Shown piece by piece: positions 25,809 through 44,335 of a stretch of DNA of 44,335 nt. Each line of letters opens with the position of its first letter. Position 1 is the first letter of the stretch. The DNA comes from a virus. The notes under the pieces were generated by a model. It saw only the letters and a list, made by a program, of their open reading frames with translations, had not been told where the DNA came from and did no database searches. Position numbers and translations under genes: made by a program. The DNA lies in the IMG/VR virus record IMGVR_UViG_3300042478_001549, positions 1 to 44,335 of that record, one strand, 5' to 3'.

Positions 25809-28800
25809 TTATAAAATTACCCATTTTTGTCCAGCAGCTATGTTTATAACGACATTGTTTGCTATAGATAATGGACCAACACTGACTGCACTGAAACCAG
25901 CACCTATTGTTACATTACTATCTATAACAGTTTTATTTTGAGTAACGAAACCTACAGTAGTATTACCACCGCCGCCTCCACCAGAAACTGTTATTTCAAC
26001 ATTTGCATTTGCTGCAACATTTTCCGATAAAATAATTGTGTTTCCACTTAATGAATATGTATTCTTTAATTGAATAACACCATCTATGTTTACTACTGTG
26101 TATTCTTTACTTTCAGGATTTGTTGTGACACTAAATGTTGATGTATTACCATTTGCAATAAAGAAATTACTATAAACTAACAAATTCACTGCGTTATTAC
26201 TAACTGCAATCAATGCAGCATTTGCTGTGTCTCTTGCGTATTGATCTGTGCCTGATCCTCCTGCGTTAGCTGCAGCAAATGCAGCATTGGCTTGTATGAA
26301 GGCTGCATTAGCCGTTTGTCTAGCTACGTTATCTGTTCCTGGACCGCCACCACCGCCGCCAGTATTCGCCACTGCGAAAGCGGCATTAGCTTGTATGAAG
26401 GCTGCATTAGCTGTGTTTCTAGCAAATTGGTCTGTGCCGGCTCCACCAGCATTAGCTGCAGCAAATGCAGCATTGGCTTGTATGTAAGCATTCGTAATAT
26501 AGGTAAATACATTATACCCAGAAACATAAATGTTGCTTGATATTACATTATTCGAAATAATTTCATTGCGGAATGTGGCTGATCCATCAACATTTAAATT
26601 TTGTAAAACATTAATGTCGCCATTTATAAATGTGTTTCCTGTCAATTCAATCGTTGCCATCGGAAGTCTGTACTGATAGACGGTATCATTGCTTGAACCA
26701 AGCATGTAAAATCTACTTCCGTCCACTTCAATGAACATACCTATTGGTGCATCATCTTGTGCAGCAACACTGAATGTTGTTGAGAATACGGCGGTACTAA
26801 CATTCCACGAAGTTGATAGATTGTATATGTTAACATCATCACCGATGTTGCCCATAACAAACATTCGGGAACCATCGTTAGCAAAAGACAAATCTTGTGG
26901 TACTGTTTCTTCAGAGGCAACACTAAAAGATTGCAGGAATGTGGCTGTTGAAACATCCCAAGCTGTTGATAAAGTATACTGATGAACAGAGTCTGTTGAA
27001 GATCCTGTCACATACATTGACAAACCATTAGGTCTAAAGAATATACCTGTTGGATTATTATCTTGACTAGAAACGGAGAACGATTTACTTTCGTAAGAAG
27101 CTGTCGATAAATCCCAAGGTGTCGTCAACGCATATTGGTAAACGGTGTCATTGGTTTGTCCAACAACATAGAATTTAAGACCATCTGGTCGGAAAAATAA
27201 ACCTGTTGGAAAATTTTCTTGTGAAGCAACAGAAAATACTCTGACAAATGTTGCTGAAGAAACCAACCATGGAGTAGTTAAGTCGTATTCGTTTACATCA
27301 TCGCCTGTCGTACCCATCACAAACATTTTCTTACCATCAGCACTAATAGACATGGCTGAAGGTGCATCTTCTTGTGTTGCGACAGAGAATGATACGTTAC
27401 TATAAATGGCGTTAGCCATATCAACGTTGCTTATAACGGTATTTCCAGTAACTCTACCACCAGTATTTGCATTCAATGAATTGTTTGCTCTGTTGAATGC
27501 ACTTTGAATGAATGGTACTACATTAACACCGGATACAATTGAAGCTGATGTAACATTGATAAAATTAGAAAAAATATTATTTGCACCACTGATATCACCA
27601 TTTGCACCAGATGTTGAGAATCCATTAGCTGTTATGGTGACAATTGTGTTTCCACTAACATTGGCTATTATATTTCCATTTGCTGTTGGAATGACAATAT
27701 TGCTACTTCCGTTTGCTATAGAAGAAGATGGAGCATTCGCAGTGTATTGTACTGTACCATCAGCAAAAGTTAATCCGTTTGATGATGGTCCTGTGATTCT
27801 GATTGCACCAGAAAATAAGTTTCCTCTAGTGGCGATACCACCAGTTGAAATTATTGCACCAGTTGTATTTGACGTTGTTGCTGCGTTTGATGTGAACAGT
27901 GTTGGTTGAGAGAACGTTACAAAACCAGAGTTGAAAACGTTACCGGTACTTGTTGTGTTACCAACCTGAAAATCGCCGTCTACAGTGAATATGCCACCAA
28001 CAAACAAGTTGCCCGCTATACCTACACCACCCCTAACAATTAATGCACCTGTGCTGTTTGATGTGGTTGGTCTGGTGTTTTGTATAATCATTGTCGATGT
28101 TGTGGACAATGTTAGGTTACCAGTTACTGTACCACCAGTTGTAGGTAGTGCTGCGTTTGCTGTCGTTCTCGCAAATGAATCTATTCCGTTTACTGTCTGA
28201 CCAACCCAATGACCAGTAGAATTGACAACCGGAATATTTGTGCCAACAGCAAGAAATTCTCCAGCCCAAACGTTACCAGTGGCTCTGAATGTATTATTCG
28301 CAGCATACATTAAGAAATCATTGCTAGAATAGTGTAATGTATCGCTGCCGGTAATTGTTGTGTCGGTAACAATGGGGAAATAAGTACCTGTTGTTACATT
28401 AGTGATTCTTGCATTGATTGCAACATTAGCTGTATTAGCACTTCCAGCTGAACCAGCCGATATGGTTTGACCAACCCAATGACCAGTCGAATTGACAACG
28501 GGTATATTTGAACCAACAGCAAGAAATTCTCCAGCCCAAACGTTACCAGTGGCTCTGAATGTATTATTCGCAGCATACATTAAGAAGTCACCACTTGAAT
28601 AATGGAATGTGTCGGCACCTGTAATTGTTGTGTCCGTAACAATTGGGAAATAAGTTCCTGTTGTTACGTTTGTTACTCTTGCGAATATGGACACGTTTGC
28701 TGTTGCAGCACTATTTGCTGTATTCGCATTTATACCAGTTGCACTATTTAATCTTGTACCATCATAGAAGATAAGTGAGTTTGCAACTATTTCATTTGAT

Positions 28801-29693
28801 ATGTTTGCATTTGGAACATACAAAGTATTGTTTGATAAACTAAACTCAGCATTTGAGTTAGATAGGAAACCAGTACCATTTGCAACAATTAAAGTGTTGG
28901 CTCTGAAACCACCTAATACAGAATTTGCTCTATTGAAAGCCGCATTGGCTTGTATGAATGCTCCGTTAGCATATAAAGAAGCACCAGCCGCATTATTGGT
29001 TGCGGTATTTGCTTGTGTATATGCTGAGTTTGCGTATGATCCAGCTGTTACTGCTTTGGAGTCTGCTGTTGATGCATTGGTTGTGGCAGTATTGGCTTGT
29101 GTATATGCTGAGTTTGCGTATGATCCGGTAGTATTTTGAGAAGCGTAAGCAGCATTTGCCTGAACGAAAGCAGCATTTGCAGTAGTTCTTGCTACAGAAT
29201 CTGTTGAAGAACCACCAGTGTTTGCTGCATTGAATGCTGCATTGGCGTGTGTGTAAGCAGCATTTGCAGTAGTTCTTGCTACAGAATCTGTTGAAGATCC
29301 ACCAGTGTTTGCTGCATTGAATGCTGCATTGGCGTGTGTGTAAGCAGCATTTGCCTGTGCAAATGCACCGTTAGCATATATTCCACCTGAAGTTGAACCA
29401 CCAGATGTGGCCGAAATAACAATTGTTTTTGTTGCAGTATTTGTATTGATACTGATGTTATCACCAGCAACAAAAGAAAGAGTATCTGAAACACCAGTAG
29501 CAAGTATCAGTGAGTTATTTGCATTGATGGTGTCGAATGAAAACTGGTTGGAAATGTAAGATGTTCCACCCAATGAATTCTTATAATATAGTTTACCATC
29601 GGCGTAGTTAATGGCAACCTCACCAAAGGATAAACCTGTTGGTGTGTTACCTGTTGCGCCTGATTTTTTTAACTGTATTGATGTGTTTGACAT
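25809..29693 (-). CDS. Long tail fibre protein with embedded propeller-like repeat block
   Basis: 1294 residues. The N-terminus (MSNTSIQLKKSGATGNTPTG, then LSFGEVAINYADGKLYYKNS) is the attachment module shared with other fibres here. Residues about 100-290 are Ala/Asn/Gln repeats of a helical, probably trimeric, shaft (ANAAYTHANAAFNAAN, SYANSAYTQANTATNN). A 90-residue beta unit is present twice. Around 27397-26660 five copies of a roughly 50-residue repeat (FSV..Q...P.G.(F)...DG...YV.G...D.V.QY.L(T/S)T.W..S) look like blades of a beta-propeller. A second shaft and a GGGGG hinge lead to the C-terminus AAGQKWVIL. No chaperone domain is obvious. Confidence 0.85.
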   Translation of the reverse strand: MSNTSIQLKKSGATGNTPTGLSFGEVAINYADGKLYYKNSLGGTSYISNQFSFDTINANNSLILATGVSDTLSFVAGDNISINTNTATKTIVISATSGGSTSGGIYANGAFAQANAAYTHANAAFNAANTGGSSTDSVARTTANAAYTHANAAFNAANTGGSSTDSVARTTANAAFVQANAAYASQNTTGSYANSAYTQANTATTNASTADSKAVTAGSYANSAYTQANTATNNAAGASLYANGAFIQANAAFNRANSVLGGFRANTLIVANGTGFLSNSNAEFSLSNNTLYVPNANISNEIVANSLIFYDGTRLNSATGINANTANSAATANVSIFARVTNVTTGTYFPIVTDTTITGADTFHYSSGDFLMYAANNTFRATGNVWAGEFLAVGSNIPVVNSTGHWVGQTISAGSAGSANTANVAINARITNVTTGTYFPIVTDTTITGSDTLHYSSNDFLMYAANNTFRATGNVWAGEFLAVGTNIPVVNSTGHWVGQTVNGIDSFARTTANAALPTTGGTVTGNLTLSTTSTMIIQNTRPTTSNSTGALIVRGGVGIAGNLFVGGIFTVDGDFQVGNTTSTGNVFNSGFVTFSQPTLFTSNAATTSNTTGAIISTGGIATRGNLFSGAIRITGPSSNGLTFADGTVQYTANAPSSSIANGSSNIVIPTANGNIIANVSGNTIVTITANGFSTSGANGDISGANNIFSNFINVTSASIVSGVNVVPFIQSAFNRANNSLNANTGGRVTGNTVISNVDMANAIYSNVSFSVATQEDAPSAMSISADGKKMFVMGTTGDDVNEYDLTTPWLVSSATFVRVFSVASQENFPTGLFFRPDGLKFYVVGQTNDTVYQYALTTPWDLSTASYESKSFSVSSQDNNPTGIFFRPNGLSMYVTGSSTDSVHQYTLSTAWDVSTATFLQSFSVASEETVPQDLSFANDGSRMFVMGNIGDDVNIYNLSTSWNVSTAVFSTTFSVAAQDDAPIGMFIEVDGSRFYMLGSSNDTVYQYRLPMATIELTGNTFINGDINVLQNLNVDGSATFRNEIISNNVISSNIYVSGYNVFTYITNAYIQANAAFAAANAGGAGTDQFARNTANAAFIQANAAFAVANTGGGGGGPGTDNVARQTANAAFIQANAAFAAANAGGSGTDQYARDTANAALIAVSNNAVNLLVYSNFFIANGNTSTFSVTTNPESKEYTVVNIDGVIQLKNTYSLSGNTIILSENVAANANVEITVSGGGGGGNTTVGFVTQNKTVIDSNVTIGAGFSAVSVGPLSIANNVVINIAAGQKWVIL
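28201..28683 (-). repeat. Two near-identical copies of a 90-codon unit in the long fibre
   Basis: 28201-28413 and 28471-28683 match with a period of 270 bases and only scattered, mostly silent differences. Each encodes RITNVTTGTYFPIVTDTTIT, then a segment with FLMYAANNTFRATGNVWAGE and VNSTGHWVGQT. This is a recent in-frame duplication that lengthens the fibre by one 90-residue unit. Confidence 0.85.
29168..29341 (-). repeat. Tandem 87-base repeat in the fibre shaft
   Basis: Two adjacent copies with a period of 87 bases (29 codons) are identical except for one base near the GAA/GAT difference (29211 versus 29298 region). They encode the shaft unit VARTTANAAYTHANAAFNAA plus NTGGSSTDS. A diverged third copy follows. 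Such repeats allow shaft-length variation by slippage or recombination. Confidence 0.85.
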
Positions 29694-33643: not shown

Positions 33644-34216
33644 TCACTCATTTGTATAGAGGAACAGATCAACTGGCATAGCTATTCTGATGTTTCCCCT
33701 ATAAGTTTCAACAAAATGATATAGAAAACTTGGAAAAACCACGGCATCACCACTCTTTGGTGTGAAAGATAGATTATCAAACCACTTTGAGAATTGATTA
33801 TCATAACCTCTATTTGAGTTCTGTCTCGGATCTGTGAAGTAAATATCACCACCAACATCTATCTCTTCACACAAGATATAAAAGATGGATGATACTGCCG
33901 CACCCTTATGGTTGTGGAAATTTGAGGCGTAGTTTTTTCCGGAACCAGTCAACCAGCCTTTTAGATTGTGACTTTTCCAATCTGAGATTTCTTTTCCCAA
34001 ACTCTCTTTCAGAAATGTATCAAAAAGTGATAACACAACTTCATCAGTAAACTTACAAATAATATCCGATTCATCGTCGAATATGTTTATGTTACTTAAA
34101 TCACCTGAAGAATTGAACATGTCATATTTGGTTAAAAAATGACTGAGAAGATTATTTCTTATTTCTTCCGAAAAATCCGTTTTCAGAAATGGTGTTGGCC
34201 ACAAATTCTGAATCAT
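33644..34216 (-). CDS. 2-oxoglutarate/Fe(II)-dependent oxygenase-like protein
   Basis: 190 residues. The start LWPTPFLKTDF and the pattern FHNHKGAAVSSIFYI, GGDIYFTDPR, GDAVVFPSFLYHFVETYRGN and IRIAMPVDLFL match the small oxygenase family often called 2OG-FeII_Oxy_5. Candidate iron ligands are His101 or His103 and His167, with Arg177 as a 2-oxoglutarate contact. Such enzymes hydroxylate proteins or small molecules, so within this cassette it may act on a peptide already altered by the radical SAM enzymes. It is the last gene of the cassette, overlapping the preceding gene by four bases (ATGA). Confidence 0.85.
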   Translation of the reverse strand: MIQNLWPTPFLKTDFSEEIRNNLLSHFLTKYDMFNSSGDLSNINIFDDESDIICKFTDEVVLSLFDTFLKESLGKEISDWKSHNLKGWLTGSGKNYASNFHNHKGAAVSSIFYILCEEIDVGGDIYFTDPRQNSNRGYDNQFSKWFDNLSFTPKSGDAVVFPSFLYHFVETYRGNIRIAMPVDLFLYTNE

Positions 34217-34608
34217 AACATGAACTCTTCCATAAAATACTTTTTCACATCTGGCACCAAACCCTTTTCTTCAAAGTTCCAGTGATTGATCTTACTCAGA
34301 ATTTCATCATATGTTTTTTGATCCAGTTCGTAATTTTTATAGTATGGGTCGTTGTCGAAAAGAAGAGACTGTTCTTTCAAATATTCTAGTGGTTCTCCAC
34401 CAAAATATTCAGACAACCATCGTGCATAACATATGCCGACCATGTAACTTTTGGCTGGATATATCCATCCTATGTTACGATCATTGAAATAACGAACAGC
34501 ATTACCAATAATATCATCTGACATTTCAACCGATTTGGTTTTCAGATCATCATCGAAATCGGTGTTGAGTCTATGATAAATTTCTTGTCTAATTTTCCAG
34601 TCTTTCAC
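34213..34608 (-). CDS. Unrecognised 131-residue cassette protein
   Basis: Starts with GTG inside the end of the preceding radical SAM gene (20-base overlap) and ends overlapping the next oxygenase gene by four bases. The protein is helical and rich in Asp, Tyr and Trp (for example IGWIYPAKSYMVGICYARWL and EYFGGEPLEYLKEQ). No domain is recognised. Small proteins of this size in radical SAM clusters are sometimes substrate carriers or leader-binding partners; that is a possibility only. The alternative is a subunit of an oxygenase. Confidence 0.75.
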   Translation of the reverse strand: MKDWKIRQEIYHRLNTDFDDDLKTKSVEMSDDIIGNAVRYFNDRNIGWIYPAKSYMVGICYARWLSEYFGGEPLEYLKEQSLLFDNDPYYKNYELDQKTYDEILSKINHWNFEEKGLVPDVKKYFMEEFML

Positions 34609-35497
34609 GATACCACTCTATTAAAAATTTATAACCATTGCAACTATTATTTAGATCCTTGACGTAACGATAGTGTTCTGTCAGGCATTTACCATAAAAC
34701 TCACAACTTCTACAGATATCACTAACGTTGTTTCGTTTTTCTTTTTGTGTCCATTTAAGGTAGTCTTCCCAACTATCCAGTTCCAAAAAATATTCATTGT
34801 CATTTAAATCGAATTCCAGTACAGCAAATTTACCATTTGGTGTGATGTAGATGTGGTCATCACTGAATGCATTTCGGTTACCATTCAGAACATCTTCAAT
34901 ATAATATTCGTTAATGAATTCAAAGTTTTTTTGTAACGGGCTTTCGATCCACTTTTTAACAAACTCCTCAAAGTCTTTGTGTGTGACGGGATGTTGATTT
35001 GCCTGGTTGGTGCTGTAAGGTTTTATTTCCACACTTCTCACACTACTACACATGTTCATCGATAATATAAAATCATCTACATCCATCTGTAATACTTTGG
35101 GGCTAGCCAAGACCAGTACGGCTATGGGTACTGGGCTCATCAACATGTTCTGATAAACTCTGTCTGACTTTTCTCTGGCTACCCAATCGTAACTAACACT
35201 CAGGTAGAAATCATCTTCATAAAAACCTTCATGCAACATTGAATAGTTGGTATTGATATTGATTTTGCCACTATAGTGTTTGCGAATCGTGTCTCTCAAT
35301 CCATAAAAGTAGTCTTTCTTTAATGTACCAATTTCACCACCATACAAATCAACATGTTCTATGTTTGGTATCTGTGATAACAAATCATCTAGTTTTTCTA
35401 ATTCTATTTTCTTCTGGTCAGACAACTGTTCTTCCGTCAGATAACAAAAGTCACATCTGAAGTTACAGAAGTAACTGGGATTAATAGAAACATTCAT
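34589..35497 (-). CDS. Radical SAM protein 1 (CX3CX2C), reduced SPASM-like C-terminus
   Basis: 302 residues. The [4Fe-4S] site is Cys11, Cys15, Cys18 (FCNFRCDFC), and GGE (53-55) contacts SAM. The C-terminal domain has Cys262, Cys265, Cys271 and Cys286 (CRSCEFYGKC, then a later Cys), which gives CX2CX5C without the fourth close Cys of a full SPASM motif. Radical SAM enzymes with such C-termini modify peptides or proteins by forming C-S, C-C or C-O links or epimers. Its start shares ATGA with the stop of radical SAM protein 2. It is shorter than the others, so it might be a partner rather than an independent catalyst. Confidence 0.9.
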   Translation of the reverse strand: MNVSINPSYFCNFRCDFCYLTEEQLSDQKKIELEKLDDLLSQIPNIEHVDLYGGEIGTLKKDYFYGLRDTIRKHYSGKININTNYSMLHEGFYEDDFYLSVSYDWVAREKSDRVYQNMLMSPVPIAVLVLASPKVLQMDVDDFILSMNMCSSVRSVEIKPYSTNQANQHPVTHKDFEEFVKKWIESPLQKNFEFINEYYIEDVLNGNRNAFSDDHIYITPNGKFAVLEFDLNDNEYFLELDSWEDYLKWTQKEKRNNVSDICRSCEFYGKCLTEHYRYVKDLNNSCNGYKFLIEWYRERLEN

Positions 35498-36564
35498 GGG
35501 TATTCTCTAACATACGGTGTAGGCTCCAGAATACCTGTCATTCCATTTGACTCGATAATATCTGGTGCCAACAGTTTCATTTTAGAACAGTGTTCTTCCA
35601 CCAAGTCATGGTCTTTTAAATCTTTGATTGTTTTCTTGCAACCATTACAAATTTGAAACATTGGGCAAGTGAAACAAGAACTTTTAAGGCTCTGTATTTC
35701 TGGTTGAAATCTCAAAGGAAATATTTTTTCACCTGACATTTCTTTTTCGAAATCTATTTGATAAAGTTTATCGTCACCAAATGCACCGCAACTATAATAG
35801 TCACCACTAGGTTGTAATGTTCGGATGTTTGCATCACAGTTTCTATTTTGTGGGCAAGTGGTTGCATGACCAACCAGTCTTTTTACCATCTGTTTTGTGT
35901 TATATTCCCACTTTGTCAAATCTTTTTTCCATATTTCAACATATATTTTATACATATATGCCAGTAAATATGGTTGCCCTTGTTGGCCCATGGTAATGTT
36001 TTTAAATTTTACCGGAGGTCCACTACTGAACGCATAGTTCAATTTACATTCCACATCCATTTCCTTGGCCAGTTCAACGTTCTTGATGGCTAGATGTTCA
36101 TTCTCCTTAGTGATAACACTTATGAAGTCCGGGCGATAACCAACAACGTCCAGCATCATATCACTGACGTTCCAGAAGTCTTCTTCACTGAACTCTGTCA
36201 AGTCACCTTTGAGTCTACCACCACCATATTGGAAACTGGTTGTAATACCCATGCGAGGATGCGTAAACAGTTCGGTCCATTTTTTGGGATTCTTATAGAA
36301 TGGCCATAGATTACTGGTAAATGATATGCGAGCATCACTACCAATTTCATTCAGATGTTCAATTATTTTCCAGTAATATTCTGGGCTCATCATTAGTGGA
36401 TCGCCACCATTAACAATTATGGTATTTGTTTCTGGATATCTCTTTAAAAACTTAAAGATATATTCGTGATCCAACTCCGCTGTCTTATCATCGGTGATGT
36501 GCGTACTTGAACAAAAGGTACACTTGAAGTTACACTTTTCAGTGGGTTTAATAATTAATTCCAT
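35494..36564 (-). CDS. Radical SAM/SPASM-type protein 2
   Basis: 356 residues. The cluster site is Cys11, Cys15, Cys18 (KCNFKCTFC), followed by GGDP (53-56) in place of the usual GGEP. In the second half a CX5C pair (CPQNRNC) and PSGDYYSCGAFGDD precede the C-terminal cluster region Cys297, Cys300, Cys306, Cys309 (CFTCPMFQICNGC), with a further Cys at 326. The spacing CX2CX5CX2C is close to, but not the same as, the SPASM CX2CX5CX3C. Probably carries one or two auxiliary iron-sulphur clusters. Four-base overlap with radical SAM protein 1, so translation is coupled. Confidence 0.92.
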   Translation of the reverse strand: MELIIKPTEKCNFKCTFCSSTHITDDKTAELDHEYIFKFLKRYPETNTIIVNGGDPLMMSPEYYWKIIEHLNEIGSDARISFTSNLWPFYKNPKKWTELFTHPRMGITTSFQYGGGRLKGDLTEFSEEDFWNVSDMMLDVVGYRPDFISVITKENEHLAIKNVELAKEMDVECKLNYAFSSGPPVKFKNITMGQQGQPYLLAYMYKIYVEIWKKDLTKWEYNTKQMVKRLVGHATTCPQNRNCDANIRTLQPSGDYYSCGAFGDDKLYQIDFEKEMSGEKIFPLRFQPEIQSLKSSCFTCPMFQICNGCKKTIKDLKDHDLVEEHCSKMKLLAPDIIESNGMTGILEPTPYVREYP

Positions 36565-36579
36565 GACAAAATTTTAGAT

Positions 36580-37692
36580 TCAATATGTCCAAGTGTAATG
36601 AAAGATGAATGTGTATCTATTAATGTCGCGTTTGATTAAGTTCCGAATGCCATGTTTGAAGATTGGTGCAGAATTGTTTACCAATACCATGACACCATCG
36701 TTTGGTAAAATGGTTTTGGTGTTTGTTATTTCTGAATTCACTTCTTTCATAATATTAATGTAACCACCCCACTCTTCTTTCCAGTCCTTTTCTTCTGTCA
36801 GATAACAGAAAACCATTAGGTCAGAACCATCGATTGCATCAACGTGATGTGGTGAATTCTCACTGCCATTCCAGAAATGAAGATACTTTGTGATGGCATT
36901 TGGTGGTCTATACATCCTTAAAGGTGAGAATGTATCATCTTTGATCAGATCATCCGAAATATCAATTAAACTCTTTGGTGCATTTGTGAAAATGTCTGCA
37001 CCAATTTTTCTTTCGTAAGATGGTCTATCATATCCGGTAGGATCAACATAATGTTTTTCGTTTTCGTGATACCAGTCTGGAACTTTTTTGTAAGTTGATT
37101 TCTTTGCATCGATCCATTTGGTATTTCTGACTTCTTCCCATAATCTTTCGTGAATATGAGGAGGAATTTTGGTCACAACGAAACCTTTATCGAAATATTC
37201 TTCAATGAAATCAATATGGTAATTTCTGTTTGAACCTGCGGCAGAATTCGCAACAATCAATCCACAAATCGTATCAAATTCACCTAGTTTTTCTTCATTG
37301 AATTTTTGTTTAGTATCATACAGTTGTTCAAATTGTGTATTGTAAACTGGTTGAATTTTTTTATTTGTGATTACATCTTTTATTAAGTTTGCCGTGTATT
37401 GTATACAGTTTATTGTTTCATCTGAATGATTTCTGAAAACTGTAAACGACCTTTTGTATCTGTTCAGTTGAAAGTAAGAATCATCTTTACCTTCTTCGAT
37501 ATCATAGGAGTAAACACCACCTTCCACATGCAATTCACCCATGAATATGTCGATGACCATGTGTATGTCTCTGCGAAGCAAGTCATATTCAAATTTAAAA
37601 TCTGTATATGTTCTTTGAACGTAATGAATTGCCTCCGAGGCAATGAAATCTTTGTTTAATTCAATTAATGGTAATATCATTTTCGTTTCCAA
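36580..37692 (-). CDS. 2OG/Fe(II) oxygenase-like protein with extra N-terminal domain
   Basis: 370 residues. The C-terminal about 210 residues are homologous to the protein at 38682-39311, sharing WNGSE(N/S), a HxD iron site (His283, Asp285), EEWGG, ILPN(D/N)G.M, the second His (347) and INRYTF with Arg359. This is the double-stranded beta-helix oxygenase pattern of prolyl 4-hydroxylase-like enzymes. The N-terminal 150 residues (MELIELNKDF-type start near YVQRTYTDFKFEYDLLRRDI) are not recognised and are absent in the shorter paralogue; they may recruit the substrate. The gene starts 32 bases inside the preceding radical SAM gene. Confidence 0.85.
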   Translation of the reverse strand: METKMILPLIELNKDFIASEAIHYVQRTYTDFKFEYDLLRRDIHMVIDIFMGELHVEGGVYSYDIEEGKDDSYFQLNRYKRSFTVFRNHSDETINCIQYTANLIKDVITNKKIQPVYNTQFEQLYDTKQKFNEEKLGEFDTICGLIVANSAAGSNRNYHIDFIEEYFDKGFVVTKIPPHIHERLWEEVRNTKWIDAKKSTYKKVPDWYHENEKHYVDPTGYDRPSYERKIGADIFTNAPKSLIDISDDLIKDDTFSPLRMYRPPNAITKYLHFWNGSENSPHHVDAIDGSDLMVFCYLTEEKDWKEEWGGYINIMKEVNSEITNTKTILPNDGVMVLVNNSAPIFKHGIRNLIKRDINRYTFIFHYTWTY

Positions 37693-38680
37693 CTTTTAAA
37701 TCAACATAGTCATAGACTTCTTTTAACCAACATGTGTCTTGAGTTCTCATGTCTTTCACGTGATTGCTCATAAAACACCCCATAGTACACCTTTGTAGGT
37801 GTTCGCATTCGTAACAATTGTAACTATCAAACCATTGTTGTTCAGTCACAACTTTAATAGGTATAACTTTCTCCAAATTCTCAAAGTAACCACAACCACC
37901 CCATTTTCCAGATGGCATAACAGTATGCGTATCCATGCATGACATTTTGTTTGCGGTTTTATTGGCAAATGTTTTGAACGGATGACAATTGTTCCAGTTC
38001 TCAAACATGTACTTCATAAAGTCACGAATCTCAATGTCTTTCGCCATTAGAAATTCATGGTTTTTTCCTGGTCCATAATAATCAAAATAGATTGGAAAGT
38101 TTTCGTACAAGTAATCAAAAAACGGTACATTGTCCGACATGAATTTATCTATATTTGGCTTCGTCATAATGACGTTGACACTGATTATATATTCTTTAAA
38201 ATCTTGTATGTTTTTTTTGTAGACTTCAAAAGTTTTTTTGTTGAATCTACCTGACGGGTCATAACTAGTCATAACCGATATTTCGTTATCGTCCAGAAAT
38301 TTCTTTATTCTTTGTTTCTTTTCCCATATAAAGTTGGTAATGAAAGAAACTTCTAAAGGTATGTTTATTTCTTTGCCGTATGCCAGTAATTTCTTGGTGA
38401 GTTCGGCGTAGTCGTCGAATACTTTATCTTCTACTGTATCCGAGAATAATTCTCCACCCATCATGTGTATGGAGATTTGCTTTTTGCCTTTTTTTATTTG
38501 CTGGTCAATTGACAATTTAATTGAGTCAAATTTACCAACTATTGTATCGATACCCTCATAGCTATCGTGGTCTTGGTTGCAGAATAAACAACTCAGATCA
38601 CAATATTCAAACAGTGTTACAATAATTTCACCAGTATCTGGTCTCTTATTGTGTATATTCAATACATGTTCAGCTATCAA
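37661..38680 (-). CDS. Radical SAM/SPASM protein 3
   Basis: 339 residues from a TTG start at 38680, since no ATG or GTG lies suitably close. Cluster site Cys27, Cys31, Cys34 (CDLSCLFC), SAM motif GGEL (75-78). The C-terminus has an exact SPASM spacing: Cys289, Cys292, Cys298, Cys302 (CYECEHLQRCTMGC) plus Cys317. The SPASM cluster usually marks enzymes that modify peptide substrates. The N-terminus is about 16 residues longer than in the other three. It starts one base after the oxygenase at 38682-39311. A late-like box at 38717-38724 lies 37 bases upstream within that gene. Confidence 0.91.
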   Translation of the reverse strand: MIAEHVLNIHNKRPDTGEIIVTLFEYCDLSCLFCNQDHDSYEGIDTIVGKFDSIKLSIDQQIKKGKKQISIHMMGGELFSDTVEDKVFDDYAELTKKLLAYGKEINIPLEVSFITNFIWEKKQRIKKFLDDNEISVMTSYDPSGRFNKKTFEVYKKNIQDFKEYIISVNVIMTKPNIDKFMSDNVPFFDYLYENFPIYFDYYGPGKNHEFLMAKDIEIRDFMKYMFENWNNCHPFKTFANKTANKMSCMDTHTVMPSGKWGGCGYFENLEKVIPIKVVTEQQWFDSYNCYECEHLQRCTMGCFMSNHVKDMRTQDTCWLKEVYDYVDLKVGNENDITIN

Positions 38681-38681
38681 T

Positions 38682-39311
38682 TTAAAACCACTTGTAAATA
38701 AAAGAGAAGGTGTATCTATTTATTGATGTGTTATGAAGTTTTTCTACCTTGTGCATGACAAGTGGGTTTGCATTGTTTATAACCAACATAGTTCCATTAT
38801 TAGGAAGAATTTTTTGTTCATAATGACAAATGTTGCCGACTTGTTTCTTCATGGTTATAGAACCGCCCCATTCACTCGACCACTTTTCGGAGTCTGTAAG
38901 ATAAATCAGAATGAGCGTGTCACATCCATTTATCGTATCGAAATGGTAATCTATACTCTCTGAACCATTCCAGAGATCAATGTATTTTAATTCGTGTGAT
39001 TTGTAGTAAGTTCTGAAAAAATCAAATTGATCATTCTCTATAAGTTTATTGCCAATTTTTATCAGTGTGATCGGAGTCTTTTCGAAAACTTCTTTTCCAA
39101 TCAGACGTTCATATTCGGATCTATTTGAACCATCTTTCTTCAATTCATATTTGTTTTTCTTTTTGTACCAAGAAGGTATTTGTTTGTAGATACCCTCTTC
39201 CGAATCATTCATCCACTCAGTCAGATAAACTTCCGACCAAAGTAATTTCAAGATATCATCAGGTACATTCGATTGAAAAAAACCTAAATCATAATAATCA
39301 TTTTGTTTCAT
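38682..39311 (-). CDS. 2OG/Fe(II) oxygenase-like protein, short paralogue
   Basis: 209 residues corresponding to the C-terminal part of the 370-residue protein at 36580-37692. Iron ligands are expected at His123, Asp125 and His187, with Arg199 contacting 2-oxoglutarate (YHFDTINGCDTLILIYLTDS, then VMHKVEKLHNTSINRYTFSF). Shared structural markers are WNGSES, SEWGG and ILPNNGTMLVINN. It likely hydroxylates a side chain of a protein or small molecule. The start shares ATGA with the stop of the upstream unrecognised gene. Confidence 0.85.
   Translation of the reverse strand: MKQNDYYDLGFFQSNVPDDILKLLWSEVYLTEWMNDSEEGIYKQIPSWYKKKNKYELKKDGSNRSEYERLIGKEVFEKTPITLIKIGNKLIENDQFDFFRTYYKSHELKYIDLWNGSESIDYHFDTINGCDTLILIYLTDSEKWSSEWGGSITMKKQVGNICHYEQKILPNNGTMLVINNANPLVMHKVEKLHNTSINRYTFSFIYKWF
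38717..38724 (-). promoter_or_regulatory. Possible late-type box within the cassette
   Basis: The minus strand reads AATAAATA inside the last codons of the oxygenase gene, 37 bases before the TTG start of radical SAM protein 3. It fits NATAAATA and the spacing seen elsewhere, but it falls in coding sequence for a conserved motif (INRYTF), so it could be fortuitous. Confidence 0.35.
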
Positions 39312-40345
39312 CTAAGTTGATATGATTTCAATTGTTCCGAGTTTTGATTTAATACATGATCCAACAAGTAGATGTTGATGTGTTCTTCGTCGCTAGATGG
39401 ATAAACTCTACTGTTCGATGTATCTTCTTTTTCCATCTGTAAAACTTTATCGACTTCTTCTTTTGTTAAGCCGCCGCGCAGCAGATCAAGCAAGTCCAGT
39501 TTCTTGATGATGGGAGAATTCTCAGAGAATTTATCCCAATTCATATAGACTTGTTTGGCTATATCTTTGAATTTCTTAATGTCTTCTTCGGAAGAATTTA
39601 TGATATCAACATTCGATGCTTCACCAACTTTACCAAGTAGTTCAGATTTATACAGTGTTGAATTGCCAAAAAATGTTTCATCGAATGGAATATTAAAGTT
39701 GGGTTTATGTTGGTTCTTATACACAGTGTGTTTTATCTCCAACAATATTTCTTGTAGTGTTCTTTTTAGAATTTTTTCTAAAGAAACAATTAATTGTGGT
39801 AAGTTTGAACCATCATGTTTATAAGACGCGACTAAAAATTCTAAACTTATCTGTTCTCTGATTGTGGTATACACTGCATCAACTTTGTCAATAGTAAGAC
39901 CACCAAATACTTTTTTGAATTCTGTTTCACTCACATCTTTGTATATTTCTACTTGTGAAGAAGAGTGATTATTTCTCCAAGATTGGCTTTTCTTCGTTTT
40001 CTTTAGATAAGAATCAACAACGAACCAAGCAGTGCTTGCATCCATATTTTTGAATAGTCTAATTAACCAATTACTTGTCAATTCGATAAAATTTTTGTCA
40101 TCAACATACACCAAAACACTTTTGTTTGTTTTTGAACTATGATCGTGTAGTGCTTTTACAAAATTATCGAAAGATTTTCCCAGATTTGCAAATTTGTCTG
40201 CATACATTAATAACTCACCATATGAAACTTTGTCCAATTGTTCGGACATTTTAATTCCATACTTCTCCGATAGCACCACTCTATCAAAGTTTATATCAAT
40301 CAAACTATCTGAAACGATATAAACTTTATTGAACAGATGAAACAT
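39308..40345 (-). CDS. Unrecognised 345-residue cassette protein
   Basis: Starts MFHLFNKVYIVSDSLIDINF and ends SEQLKSYQLR. Mostly helical with alternating strands in the first 120 residues (VLVYVDDKNFIELTSNWLIR, ASTAWFVVDSYLKKTKKSQS), no membrane segment, few cysteines and no metal motif. The N-terminal strands followed by helices suggest a Rossmann-like or receiver-like alpha/beta fold, but that is an impression. It overlaps the upstream 239-residue gene by 20 bases and the downstream oxygenase by 4, so expression is coupled with the cassette. Confidence 0.78.
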   Translation of the reverse strand: MFHLFNKVYIVSDSLIDINFDRVVLSEKYGIKMSEQLDKVSYGELLMYADKFANLGKSFDNFVKALHDHSSKTNKSVLVYVDDKNFIELTSNWLIRLFKNMDASTAWFVVDSYLKKTKKSQSWRNNHSSSQVEIYKDVSETEFKKVFGGLTIDKVDAVYTTIREQISLEFLVASYKHDGSNLPQLIVSLEKILKRTLQEILLEIKHTVYKNQHKPNFNIPFDETFFGNSTLYKSELLGKVGEASNVDIINSSEEDIKKFKDIAKQVYMNWDKFSENSPIIKKLDLLDLLRGGLTKEEVDKVLQMEKEDTSNSRVYPSSDEEHINIYLLDHVLNQNSEQLKSYQLR

Positions 40346-41045
40346 CTTTAAACTCCTGAATAGTTTTATTTTTCATTTCAACGTATTCATTTTCTTTAAC
40401 CAGCCCTTCAGCGATACCATATGTAAGCAAAAATAAAGGATTGTTTTCGTTTGCCCAGTAAGAAAATAAATTCTTACCTTTAAAAACGTACTCATTAAAA
40501 TAGTGTGAATAAAATTTTAAACTGTTTTGATTTGTGTTCTGAAAGAACGAATATAAATTTTTGTGTTTTAACAGACTTATGAAATTAACTCCGTTCATTT
40601 CTTTTGTATCATCAACCGGAAAACTATCAACGAACTGTTTAAATGCATCATCTTTGATGATATGCATATTATAAAGAGTCAAACTTTCCAGTTTAGATAT
40701 CCATTTATTCAAAATTTCTCTATTCTGTTCAATGAATTCTTTATCAATCGGCGGTATCAATCCTTTTGCTTGATGAAGAATTGCAATCGTAGAACTTTCT
40801 AAAGATGGAACATTAACAATCATGGATGTATTCAAGTAATCTTTGATCATTTCAAAGCATTCTTCATTCGAACAATCTTTAAAAGAGATATCACATGGTA
40901 TGTCCAGGTTGGAAATATATGTCAAAAGTTTTGAACCTTTTAAGGTACTGTCTTTATAGTTGATAACAAAAAAAGTTGTTTTGTCTGTGAAATATTTTTT
41001 TAAATTATCAATAGATACTGGCGCAGTTGTTTCAACGACATTCAT
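40326..41045 (-). CDS. Unrecognised 239-residue cassette protein next to the CHxS protein
   Basis: Starts MNVVETTAPVSIDNLKKYFT and is alpha/beta in character (TTFFVINYKDSTLKGSKLLT, then mainly helices to IQEFKDVSSVQ). No known domain is recognised. Its ribosome binding site (AGGAGATAATAATG) overlaps the last codons of the CHxS-tailed gene, three bases away, so its translation is directly tied to that gene. This close coupling makes it a candidate chaperone, recognition partner or processing factor for the CHxS protein; no sequence evidence decides. Confidence 0.78.
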   Translation of the reverse strand: MNVVETTAPVSIDNLKKYFTDKTTFFVINYKDSTLKGSKLLTYISNLDIPCDISFKDCSNEECFEMIKDYLNTSMIVNVPSLESSTIAILHQAKGLIPPIDKEFIEQNREILNKWISKLESLTLYNMHIIKDDAFKQFVDSFPVDDTKEMNGVNFISLLKHKNLYSFFQNTNQNSLKFYSHYFNEYVFKGKNLFSYWANENNPLFLLTYGIAEGLVKENEYVEMKNKTIQEFKDVSSVQ

Positions 41046-41047
41046 TA

Positions 41048-41620
41048 TTATCTCCTAGAACGCGAACCATGGCATGACGAATGGCAAGAAGCATGACAGA
41101 CGTTAACTTGTATAGTCACTGTACTTCCTCTTGCACTATTATATGTACTTCTTAATGTGTTAAAGAATGATTCTAGATTTGTGGCAGACGCGACATTTCC
41201 GGAAGCTACACCATTATTTGCTGGTGTACCAATGCTTTGAAGATAACTACCGTTCATGTACGCAACAGCTGTTTGGTCGTAAATAACACCGGGTGTTGGG
41301 CGTGAACCGGTGTTGCCACCGGCGCCATCGACAAACAATATCGCACGTAAGTTCCTGATTGAAGTGTATGCCGCAGTTTCATTCACAAGTGTATTGTAAA
41401 TATTTGATGCTGTAATTCTTGTGCCGGAAGAACCAATACTTCCTCCATTTATGCCTATTGCTCTTCCACTAGTTGAACCACCAAAATATCCACCATCAAA
41501 TTCTGCAAATGGATATGCGTTTGTGCCCCATGAAATACCTGAAGCTGATGTTGCGGTTACGTAATCTGCAAATCTATCAACGATGTTTTGTGTTCTTATA
41601 GGGTTAGTTAATGTTGCCAT
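41048..41620 (-). CDS. CHxS-tailed protein, candidate substrate of the radical SAM cassette
   Basis: 190 residues, Gly/Ser/Thr/Asn/Ala-rich with a beta-type body (for example FAEFDGGYFGGSTSGRAIGI and NLRAILFVDGAGGNTGSRPT), similar in style to phage tail proteins. The body has no cysteine and no histidine. All three Cys and all three His lie in residues 175-184 as three Cys-His-Xaa-Ser units (CHAS, CHSS, CHGS; bases 41063-41098), followed by the basic end RSRR. No signal peptide. The His-Xaa-Ser repeat recalls HxsA substrates of paired radical SAM maturases, and a full SPASM radical SAM gene begins upstream, overlapping by 17 bases. Alternatives: the tail binds iron or zinc as a pointed virion tip, without modification. 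Confidence 0.8.
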   Translation of the reverse strand: MATLTNPIRTQNIVDRFADYVTATSASGISWGTNAYPFAEFDGGYFGGSTSGRAIGINGGSIGSSGTRITASNIYNTLVNETAAYTSIRNLRAILFVDGAGGNTGSRPTPGVIYDQTAVAYMNGSYLQSIGTPANNGVASGNVASATNLESFFNTLRSTYNSARGSTVTIQVNVCHASCHSSCHGSRSRR

Positions 41621-42659
41621 CTTTTAATATCCATACTTTTCTTTTTTGATTGCTTTTTAAGAATCTCATCAAACTTTTTGGTGCACCACACACATCATTT
41701 TCCCATTCTAGTTGATGACAATCTCCGCCACAATATTCAAATACATCACACGAATAACATCTAGGATCCCTAGACCTTTCACATGCAATGTTTTCCAATC
41801 TGGTTGGACTATTTATAAGGCTTTCTATATCATCATCTATCGTGCCAAATTGAAACTCCGGTGCAGAATTTGGGCATCCAGATATGGTTCCATCCGCATT
41901 TAGTGTGAATAACTTCTCTTCACAATCTCTACAGAATGTTCCGCCTGCGGTGAAACCCGTTTCGAATTTATTGTACACCGTTTCCAGAAATTCATTATCA
42001 AACCAACCTCTTGCACCATGTTCTTCACTCTGATGGTGCATCTTCAGAAACCATTCGTCCTGTTCCACATTTGTGGGAAATATATGTAGGTTTTGTTTGG
42101 CACTGCCGTTCATCGTCAGTCTTTCTAGTGCCAGTTCTTTGACACCGAGTGATCTGACCCACTCTAGTAGTTCGATAGGTTCAATTGCAATCGTGCCTTT
42201 AGTTACACTGATGAATAGTTTCACAACGACACCCATATCAATCAGTGTCTGCACATTCTTTCTCCACAGATCATACTGTTTAGGATTTGCAAATCGAATA
42301 TCTGGATCCCAACTGGTACCGACTCTGCCACCCAATGGACCCATAATGAAGTCTATTTTTTCTTGGTCTAGTTTGAAAGCCAGATTGGTTGTGATGCCCC
42401 AACTTTGACTTTTCCATAAGTTCTGGCAATTGTCATACACATACTGCATAGAAGATATATCTGCCAAGAATGGTTCGCCACCATGAAATTCAAAGTGAAC
42501 GTGTGGTGCATATTGTGTTTGTGCTGCCATTCTGTGTAACCAGTCGGCAACCTTGATGTGATTCCAATATATCTTTGCGCCTTTGGAACCACTGGTAAAA
42601 CAATGTAAACAGTTTAAGTTACAAGTTTCCGTCGTCTTCAAATAGAACATTAAGTCCAT
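41604..42659 (-). CDS. Radical SAM/SPASM protein 4, adjacent to the CHxS protein
   Basis: 351 residues. Cluster site Cys13, Cys17, Cys20 (CNLNCLHC), SAM motif GGEP (60-63). The C-terminal half has the pre-SPASM pattern CRDCEEKLFTLNADGTISGC and then an exact SPASM set Cys301, Cys304, Cys310, Cys314 (CYSCDVFEYCGGDC) with Cys324. This is the anaerobic-sulfatase-maturase-like architecture, whose members oxidise or cross-link peptide side chains. Its stop overlaps the start of the CHxS-tailed gene by 17 bases, which makes that protein the first candidate substrate. The start overlaps the upstream cupin-like gene. Confidence 0.94.
   Translation of the reverse strand: MDLMFYLKTTETCNLNCLHCFTSGSKGAKIYWNHIKVADWLHRMAAQTQYAPHVHFEFHGGEPFLADISSMQYVYDNCQNLWKSQSWGITTNLAFKLDQEKIDFIMGPLGGRVGTSWDPDIRFANPKQYDLWRKNVQTLIDMGVVVKLFISVTKGTIAIEPIELLEWVRSLGVKELALERLTMNGSAKQNLHIFPTNVEQDEWFLKMHHQSEEHGARGWFDNEFLETVYNKFETGFTAGGTFCRDCEEKLFTLNADGTISGCPNSAPEFQFGTIDDDIESLINSPTRLENIACERSRDPRCYSCDVFEYCGGDCHQLEWENDVCGAPKSLMRFLKSNQKRKVWILKDGNIN
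41810..41817 (-). promoter_or_regulatory. Perfect T4-type late box inside radical SAM gene 4
   Basis: The minus strand reads TATAAATA, the full T4 late consensus, about 190 bases before the start of the CHxS-tailed gene. It codes for part of the SLINSP segment of the radical SAM protein. If active it would give late transcription of the CHxS gene and the genes that follow, independent of radical SAM protein 4. Coding constraint and AT-richness allow a chance match. Confidence 0.4.
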
Positions 42660-43134
42660 GATTTATCTTTTCAACATAAAATTTTTCTAATCCAAAACTC
42701 AATATCAAAGACTTGTCTTCATTAATGATCTCATGTGGTGTGTTGGCTGGTATATAGATACAGTCACCACTTTTCAATACATTTTTCACATCATTAACAA
42801 ACAGAGTTTTTGAGCCGAAAATACATTCAATTATAACATCATCCGGATCTATATGCAAACCAAAACTTTTGGAACCTTTGAATGCCAGAAATGCATGACA
42901 AGTTACCGGACCATTATGTGAGTATTTTTTTCTAAGGTTCTGGCATTTCTGAAAAATACTTTGACTGTATTTTTCCATTTGTTCCAGTTTTATGGTGCTG
43001 CCTGTATGTTTATATAGTTCACCAATTCCATCCAGAAATATTTGACGCGATTGATCATCAATGACAGAGATTATTTTCTGTTCATATACCAAATCGGTGT
43101 GTAAGAAGTTTTCAAACTCATCTAGTGTAATCAT
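42619..43134 (-). CDS. Cupin/JmjC-like oxygenase, first cassette gene
   Basis: 171 residues from ATG 43134 (MITLDEFENF); an upstream TTG at 43143 gives three more residues but has no better ribosome binding site. The C-terminal half shows a cupin/JmjC barrel: FKGSKSFGLHIDPDDVIIEC with His94 and Asp96, LKSGDCIYIPANTPHEIINE with His134, then LSFGLEKF. This fits the Fe(II) site of cupin_8/JmjC hydroxylases, which hydroxylate proteins, but a simple metal-binding cupin is possible. It overlaps radical SAM gene 4 by 41 bases. Confidence 0.82.
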   Translation of the reverse strand: MITLDEFENFLHTDLVYEQKIISVIDDQSRQIFLDGIGELYKHTGSTIKLEQMEKYSQSIFQKCQNLRKKYSHNGPVTCHAFLAFKGSKSFGLHIDPDDVIIECIFGSKTLFVNDVKNVLKSGDCIYIPANTPHEIINEDKSLILSFGLEKFYVEKINHGLNVLFEDDGNL

Positions 43135-43166
43135 AACAATCAAAAAGTAAAAATGACTTTTCGGAA

Positions 43167-43216: not shown

Positions 43217-44335
43217 TTATAAAATCACTGCTTCAATTAGTTTTACTCCAGTATCATCACTCGATTCTAGTGCGATTGCGAAAACGTCATTTGCATGTGG
43301 CACTGCTGCAACAGCCGTACCGTTGTTATATGCAACCAAACGTTGTCCTTTACGCACAGTGCCAGATACTTTCACTGGAACCCTACCTTTAAGTGCAATA
43401 TAAGTTCCACCTTCCAGTTCACTGTTCATCATATAAGCAGGATGAGCAGATACTACTCCGATTGCTCTATCTCCATATGAACCAGCGGTAACTTCTGCTT
43501 CGCCACCAACAGCAACAACTGTTCCAACTTCATATTCTTGATCAGCCAAATACTTTTCTGCCAAGTCAGCGTAGTTGGCACTAGTTGCAAGACCTCTGAA
43601 CACTGTTGCGTATATGTCACCCGAACCATCTCTTGCAGCAATTTTATTTGCGGTACCTGTTGTCGTGGCATCAACAGACCATGTTCTTGATGTGCTGCCA
43701 TTGTAAACATCACCAACCAAATATGTTCCCGCTGAGTGTGAAGATAAAGTTCCACCCAAGGAAACACCAGAAATTGTGCTACTTGACAACTGTGTATTCG
43801 TAATACCAGCACTAGCACTCAATTGTGTGGTTGTGATGCCACTCAGTCTAGCGAGAGGAACAGTACCACTGGAAAGATTACTTGCATTCAATGCACTACT
43901 TGCTGTTGAGAAAGCCGAATTGGCTTGAGTGAATGCGGAGTTTGCATATGATCCGGCAGTGACAGCTTTAGAGTCTGCTGTTGCAGCATTGGTTGTTGCA
44001 GTGTTCGCTTGAGCGTAACCAGCATTAGCTTGTCTAAAAGCACCATTGGCGTATAGAGAAGCACCTGCGGCATTATTAGTTGCGGTATTAGCCTGACCAT
44101 ATGCTGAGTTTGCATAAGAACCAGCCGTAACAGCTTTGGAGTCTGCTATTGCTGCATTGGTTGTAGCAGTGTTTGCTTGTCCGTATGCGGAGTTAGCATA
44201 AGAACCAGCTGTTACTGCTTTACTGTCGGCTGTGGCTGCATTAGTGGTCGCAGTGTTTGCTTGTGTAAAAGCACCATTTGCATATAGTGCAGCCGAATTC
44301 GCTATAGCATCTGGTGTATTGGCTCTCAAGAACGC
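43217..44335 (-). CDS. Tail fibre protein, C-terminal part (5' end beyond window)
   Basis: The frame is open to the right edge (first visible residues AFLRANTPDAIANSAALYAN), so the N-terminus is missing. About four copies of a 28-residue shaft unit (QANTATTNAATADSKAVTAG plus SYANSAYG) lead to a beta-helical part (LARLSGITTTQLSASAGITN) and a C-terminal domain DLAEKYLADQEYEVGTVVAV, then AIGVVSAHPAYMMNSELEGG, ending LIEAVIL. This C-terminal domain is common on tail fibres of T4-like cyanophages and myoviruses. The same shaft unit occurs in the 1294-residue fibre at 25809-29693. Confidence 0.85.
   Translation of the reverse strand, partial: AFLRANTPDAIANSAALYANGAFTQANTATTNAATADSKAVTAGSYANSAYGQANTATTNAAIADSKAVTAGSYANSAYGQANTATNNAAGASLYANGAFRQANAGYAQANTATTNAATADSKAVTAGSYANSAFTQANSAFSTASSALNASNLSSGTVPLARLSGITTTQLSASAGITNTQLSSSTISGVSLGGTLSSHSAGTYLVGDVYNGSTSRTWSVDATTTGTANKIAARDGSGDIYATVFRGLATSANYADLAEKYLADQEYEVGTVVAVGGEAEVTAGSYGDRAIGVVSAHPAYMMNSELEGGTYIALKGRVPVKVSGTVRKGQRLVAYNNGTAVAAVPHANDVFAIALESSDDTGVKLIEAVIL

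Follow-up and report, generated by a model that had tools for sequence, protein, structure and literature searches.

A CHxS-repeat tail paired with radical-SAM genes in jumbo phages and Bdellovibrionota: a candidate substrate for tailoring of a virion tip

Gene content of the locus

The window, meaning the whole stretch of 44,335 nucleotides that was analysed, is a fragment of a myovirus genome in which portal, sheath, terminase and baseplate genes were found. A 1294-aa open reading frame without a PHROG match also lies among the structural genes, at 25809–29693. The gene of interest encodes a protein that terminates in V-CHAS-CHSS-CHGS-RSRR-stop and, as a preliminary description of this DNA had pointed out, the Cys residues (175, 179 and 183 only) and His residues (176, 180 and 184 only) are confined to this tail. 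The same description had placed a complete SPASM radical-SAM gene across the start of the tailed gene and this was confirmed, as the start codon of the tailed gene lies 17 nt inside rSAM_A (Table 1). Upstream of rSAM_A are the genes for the JmjC-type cupin and for a protein resembling tail fibres, while downstream of the tailed gene the order is phrog_20767 protein, g345, 2OG oxygenase 1, rSAM_B, 2OG oxygenase 2, rSAM_C, rSAM_D, g131 and 2OG oxygenase 3, all on one strand with ends that overlap or almost abut. A tailed protein identical to that of the window was also identified on a contig of 156,657 bases.

Table 1. Genes and features of the tailed-protein cassette, in window coordinates.
Feature	Position	Strand	Basis
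CHxS-tailed protein, 190 aa; proposed substrate and proposed virion protein	41048..41620	-	ORF, homologues, AF2 model
Tail, residues 175-190, CHAS-CHSS-CHGS-RSRR	41051..41098	-	Conserved C/H/R positions
rSAM_A, SPASM radical-SAM enzyme, 351 aa	41604..42659	-	PHROG 1802 E 7e-66; TIGR04085; SPASM cysteines
JmjC-type cupin (HxD...H) protein	42619..43143	-	Pfam JmjC_2 and Cupin_2 above cut-off
Tail-fibre-like protein, Ala-rich repeats and C-terminal Peptidase_G2-like domain; continues past window end	43217..44335	-	PHROG tail fibre families
phrog_20767 protein, conserved cassette partner	40326..41045	-	PHROG match; alignment
g345, conserved cassette protein, 345 aa	39308..40345	-	Homologues, alignment
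2OG-Fe(II) oxygenase 1	38682..39311	-	PF13640 above cut-off
rSAM_B, SPASM radical-SAM enzyme	37661..38680	-	PHROG 1802 E 8e-43; alignment
2OG-Fe(II) oxygenase 2, 370 aa	36580..37692	-	PF13640 above cut-off
rSAM_C, SPASM radical-SAM enzyme	35494..36564	-	PF04055 above cut-off
rSAM_D, twitch/SPASM-like radical-SAM enzyme	34589..35497	-	PHROG 1802 E 2e-32; alignment
g131, small conserved cassette protein	34213..34608	-	Relatives found by HMM in cassettes of phages and bacteria
2OG-Fe(II) oxygenase 3	33644..34216	-	PF13759 E 3.7e-10, above cut-off

Conservation of the tail and divergence of the body

IMG/VR was scanned with a degenerate nucleotide pattern encoding (CHxx)3RxRR, which recovered at least 120 stretches. 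R-x-R-R-stop formed the exact end of 137 of the 141 pattern matches listed, and the pattern matches exclude a chance origin of the CHxS tail. Over the whole analysis, 160 distinct tailed proteins were counted in phages and 19 on genome contigs; one protein has four repeats and all other distinct tailed proteins have three. As loci fetched with the pattern would make the argument circular, invariance of the Cys, His and Arg positions is claimed from loci fetched without it, where these positions were identical across 73 distinct tails. The fourth place of each unit, where the letters were free in the search, was occupied by Ser in 73, 61 and 64 of the 73 tails for units 1, 2 and 3, respectively.

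Sequence identity of the body falls to 23–35% between tailed proteins while the tail stays constant, as would be expected if a variable carrier bears a modified core, and the carriers range from 125 to 370 aa across the family. The whole tailed protein used as a query against 50,697 phage records gave no match because its body evolves fast, and neighbouring genes were used as queries instead. Of the window protein, the profile of phrog_35144, a family with no assigned function, covers the last 44 residues and no other part.

The AlphaFold2 model of the tailed protein, built with 58 aligned relatives, had a pLDDT of 85.8 and a pTM of 0.78, and its last predicted strand (residues 167–174) leads straight into a tail of low confidence or disorder. 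Pfam contained nothing that matched the tailed protein, and a PDB fold search with the body returned no match (best E 1.2, probability ≤0.03). In a viral structure library the body matched only members of its own family, including that of Atu_ph07, together with three proteins of Myoviridae sp. ctijX18 that are larger (504–660 aa; BFVD entries A0A8S5USJ7, A0A8S5USJ8 and A0A8S5USV2), have unassigned functions and share the body fold. The resemblance of the body to phage tail proteins that was initially proposed was therefore not borne out, as neither Pfam nor the PDB offered a relative and the viral relatives have no known function.

Association of the tail with radical-SAM genes

Among 80 loci fetched by rSAM_A alone, from which four with less than 300 nt of room were left out, all 76 testable loci carried exactly one tailed protein with three repeats each, and in the reverse test a radical-SAM gene lay within 2.5 kb of 96 of the 97 tail genes that had at least 1.2 kb of DNA on each side; many of these loci are overlapping finds from the same contigs and the pairing counts are not independent events. 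The tailed gene started no more than about 30 nt from the end of the rSAM_A match in 67 of the 76 loci. The sole exception in the reverse test (L125) has four radical-SAM genes elsewhere in its record. A radical-SAM gene accompanied none of the 72 chance pattern matches in bacterial genomes. A 5.4 kb fragment (L181) with a truncated tail gene and no radical-SAM gene was excluded from the count, being part of an incomplete bacterial bin that is cut at the gene. The pairing with radical-SAM maturases put forward at the outset thus withstood a search for the tail in phages that lack radical-SAM genes, which found none, and the genetic tie of the tail to radical-SAM genes is obligate where it can be tested.

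One subtype of the family has two tandem tailed proteins of about 125–140 aa with RRTVDLIEGR bodies and a second, divergent radical-SAM set directly behind them (L015, L039, L047, L048, L058, L068, L082, L084, L100, L102 and others). These tandem-pair loci were considered as candidates for radical-SAM-free loci and rejected, as several divergent radical-SAM genes adjoin them.

Predicted activities of the cassette proteins

Sequence analysis of rSAM_A identified the CxxxCxxC motif and a full set of SPASM cysteines (CX10GX4C / CX2CX5CX3C / C), which did not vary among seven diverse relatives. This arrangement falls within the CX9-15GX4C / CX2CX5CX3C / C definition of SPASM members, and the TIGR04085 score was 35 bits against a cut-off of 27. 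The top-scoring equivalog models for rSAM_A, all sub-threshold, were PapB, anSME and their relatives, with PapB as the best at 47.6 bits against a cut-off of 340, and its best PDB matches were CteB and anSME; PapB, anSME and CteB are all SPASM enzymes that modify peptides. No named equivalog cut-off tested (PapB, anSME, CteB and others) was exceeded by rSAM_A. The parallel to the Hxs system drawn in the preliminary description was not supported, since HxsB scored 36 bits against 370 and HxsC 28.5 against 267.9, and since the unit is CHxS and not HxS; H-x-S is embedded in every C-H-x-S unit, with an invariant Cys and a variable x-Ser pair. The rSAM_C sequence has 57–64% identity to its counterparts in six isolated phages.

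The cupin possesses the iron triad of JmjC cupins (H97, D99 and H137), which is invariant in 29 relatives, and scored 37.9 bits with the Pfam JmjC_2 model against a cut-off of 22. Its PDB profile matches include the histidyl hydroxylase MINA53 (E 3.8e-5) among other cupins. The enzyme activities of rSAM_A and the cupin are predictions from sequence. For g345 no relative was found in the PDB by sequence, and the phrog_20767 protein, modelled with a pLDDT of 87, had no PDB fold match. An in-frame TGA in some radical-SAM matches was considered as a possible selenocysteine codon and rejected as alignment overhang beyond the gene ends. Burkholderia phage cassettes contain two genes with a dihydrofolate reductase annotation (L013, 20319–21532; L014, 20406–21583), which may encode reductases of the pathway.

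Cassettes of isolated phages and indirect evidence for a virion location

Queries with neighbouring genes identified the cassette in six isolated jumbo phages, namely Atu_ph07, Phosso, FLC6, FLC8, SURPRISE13 and DT01, which span at least two unrelated groups. The cupin, rSAM_A, rSAM_C and phrog_20767 protein each led to the same six phages among the 50,697 records. In the five phages examined rSAM_A is followed by a gene for a 178–306 aa protein that ends in (CHxS/A/N)3-RxRR, and the gene order of the cassette is constant across unrelated phages.

The tailed protein of Atu_ph07 is FDI40_gp170 (121118–122008). According to the Atu_ph07 proteomics report, most virion proteins identified by mass spectrometry fall in three clusters, one of which is CDS 170–215 (PMC6102473). 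The numbering in that report agrees with the Atu_ph07 record, where gp181 is a baseplate protein, gp215 the major head protein and gp227 a tRNA-His guanylyltransferase. Since the cluster so delimited runs from gp170 to the major head protein, gp170 itself was very probably among the proteins identified, as read from the cluster boundary. In addition, of the 157 loci in which 3.5 kb or more of sequence precedes the tail gene, 122 have upstream of it a gene for a fibre-like protein with a Peptidase_G2-like domain, and this domain of a close relative matches Peptidase_G2 above the cut-off. The virion location suggested earlier is thus supported, albeit indirectly, by a reported proteomics cluster that starts at gp170 and by a fibre gene that precedes the cassette.

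The Campylobacter phages CP220 and CPt10 have eleven to twelve radical-SAM genes, five of them in an exchangeable module (PMC2853527). In the searches made these genes showed no relation to rSAM_A, rSAM_C or phrog_20767, and they are possibly another phage tailoring system.

Cassettes in Bdellovibrionota

A scan of 84,980 species genomes recovered further tails on bacterial contigs, several of which are phage contigs in bins. Nine tail-bearing genomes are titled or classed as Bdellovibrionota, with one copy per genome of 2.5–4.2 Mb, and the cassette was present in 5 of the 129 genomes of one class. These cassettes are chromosomal, and those examined are flanked by thiolase, acyl-CoA dehydrogenase, ABC-transporter, FixG-like or FeoB genes. 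They share the radical SAMs, the phrog_20767 protein and the oxygenases with the phage cassette.

Proteins of a prepilin-S74 family are encoded near the cassette in six Bdellovibrionota genomes, and in four of these Pfam confirmed both Peptidase_S74 and the prepilin methylation motif. At loci L310–L324 (genomes G010–G018) a prepilin N-terminus is fused to a C-terminal Peptidase_S74 chaperone domain, and this protein is paired with a conserved 'GRHWVKVK' protein. The DNA examined around the cassettes of some genomes (G014 and G015) shows no prepilin/S74 gene. Comparison of the GRHW protein with the phage Peptidase_G2 domain gave an hhalign probability of 44, and the sequences of the bacterial tailed and GRHW proteins contain no obvious secretion signal. 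Another bacterial tail gene adjoins a prepilin peptidase gene. Two bacterial cassettes also contain a larger gene of one kind (L311, 5571–7310; L313, 1568–3280); the L311 copy matches Radical_SAM, with a B12-binding domain below the Pfam cut-off, hinting at methylation in the bacterial version of the cassette.

A proposed tailoring pathway and its alternatives

The explanation that we consider probable, with considerable room for doubt, is that the cassette is a tailoring pathway for which the (CHxS)3-RxRR tail is the substrate and a modified, virion-borne C-terminal tip on the attachment apparatus is the product. We infer the modification of the tail, its chemistry and its role in attachment, while the evidence that the tailed protein is present in the virion is indirect. 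The carrier would fold and offer its tail to rSAM_A, possibly with the phrog_20767 protein and g345 as adaptors. Together with rSAM_B to rSAM_D, the JmjC-type hydroxylase and the 2OG oxygenases, rSAM_A would then modify Cys and/or His, and possibly Ser or Arg, in the three repeats; candidate reactions are the formation of a thioether between Cys and a neighbouring carbon (as for PapB and CteB), oxidation of Cys to formylglycine (as for anSME) and His or Arg hydroxylation of the kind catalysed by JmjC oxygenases, and the sequence does not discriminate between them. After the oxygenases had finished the tip the protein would join the particle, where its body would dock, probably with the tail fibre whose gene lies a short way upstream, and the invariant RxRR end could be a recognition handle or part of the finished tip. 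The finished tip would be hardened chemically or made reactive, and would assist the particle in contacting the Gram-negative envelope or in getting through it. In Bdellovibrionota, the protein tailored by this cassette would be one associated with a pilus or fibre and employed on prey. Counting against the tailoring pathway, four radical SAMs and the oxygenases exceed the obvious need of three repeats, and some of these enzymes may act elsewhere. The body also lacks a recognisable virion fold, the bacterial tailed proteins lack an obvious secretion signal that would account for their reaching the surface, and no prepilin/S74 gene was seen near some of the bacterial cassettes, all of which likewise count against it.

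Alternatively, the tail may be a metal-binding site with thiolate and imidazole ligands that the radical-SAM genes serve indirectly, or these genes may act elsewhere. In favour of this explanation, Cys and His paired at every fourth residue are natural ligands, the tail is predicted to be disordered without a ligand, and iron bound by His is known from the tips of phage spikes. It is nevertheless unlikely in our judgement, as every tail that allowed the test is accompanied by radical-SAM genes, the rSAM_A and tailed genes overlap or abut, and four radical-SAM enzymes are not needed for simple metal binding; the tail could also bind metal after its modification. The layout of a variable carrier, a fixed core and SPASM enzymes would also fit a RiPP precursor, from which the modified core is cleaved and released as a small bioactive peptide that, for example, excludes or kills competitors, and several of the top-scoring rSAM_A models are peptide maturases. 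The size of the carriers argues against this, as do the predicted fold of the one modelled (pLDDT 86), in which a beta strand runs straight into the tail with no obvious leader or cleavage site, and a cassette in which neither a peptidase nor an exporter is constant; gp170 is moreover the first gene of a virion-protein cluster in the proteomics report cited above. A cleaved peptide is consequently an improbable product.

Similarly improbable is a cassette whose product is a small molecule, or whose targets are nucleotides or some other protein such as the fibre, with the tailed protein as a scaffold or carrier that binds the enzymes through its tail. This would account for there being more enzymes than a 12-residue core requires and for the two predicted dihydrofolate reductases of the Burkholderia phage cassettes, and it would agree with earlier papers that assign the radical-SAM genes of phages to metabolism or DNA repair. 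The strict conservation of Cys, His and the terminal Arg suits a substrate better, however, and SPASM enzymes act mostly on peptides.

With the tailoring pathway as the preferred explanation, its extension to attachment rests mainly on phages and predators sharing the cassette beside fibre genes in both. We therefore propose, tentatively and as something short of probable, that a mobile radical-SAM/JmjC/2OG cassette common to phages and predatory bacteria builds an altered, possibly cross-linked or covalently reactive, prey-contact tip by a chemistry otherwise known only from peptide natural products; in phages this would amount to tailoring of a virion protein by several enzymes that the virus itself encodes. 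Earlier papers on these or similar phages listed their radical-SAM genes without a role or as Fe-S, metabolic or DNA-repair genes, and a search of the open literature, as distinct from subscription papers and preprints, gave no description of the system, of the motif or of radical-SAM modification of phage virions. The present analysis provides phage radical-SAM genes, in culturable isolates, with a specific, obligate partner whose candidate core is obvious. Should the tail prove to be modified, phages would apply natural-product chemistry to their own particles, predatory bacteria would use the same device, and folded proteins could be tailored with a newly available set of enzymes.

Comparison with known systems

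Bdellovibrio uses Peptidase_S74 fibres (MAT) on its prey (PMC10769870), and the Bdellovibrionota cassettes likewise lie beside proteins with the S74 domain, a domain as in phage fibres; the cassette-side proteins differ in starting with a prepilin-like signal, and the MAT paper includes neither radical-SAM genes nor a pilin. The cassette cupin resembles the JmjC ribosomal oxygenases MINA53, NO66 and YcfD in its HxD...H triad and its JmjC_2 match, and differs from them in being a cassette gene product of about 170 aa. SPASM cysteines and a Cys-rich core beside the enzyme gene are features in common with the SPASM RiPP maturases (PapB of ranthipeptides, CteB/SCIFF and the sactipeptide enzymes), whose short leader-core peptides contrast with a candidate substrate that is predicted to be folded and is probably particle-associated, in a phage cassette without a constant exporter or peptidase. 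The Hxs system (HxsB/HxsC; TIGR03978, TIGR03977) similarly combines radical-SAM enzymes with a partner protein that has short His/Ser-containing repeats, whereas in the cassette described here the unit is CHxS, occurs almost always three times at the extreme C-terminus before RxRR, and is accompanied by JmjC-type and 2OG oxygenases. Judged from these sequence comparisons, the cassette appears to work like radical-SAM peptide maturation and to lie outside Hxs and every named equivalog tested.
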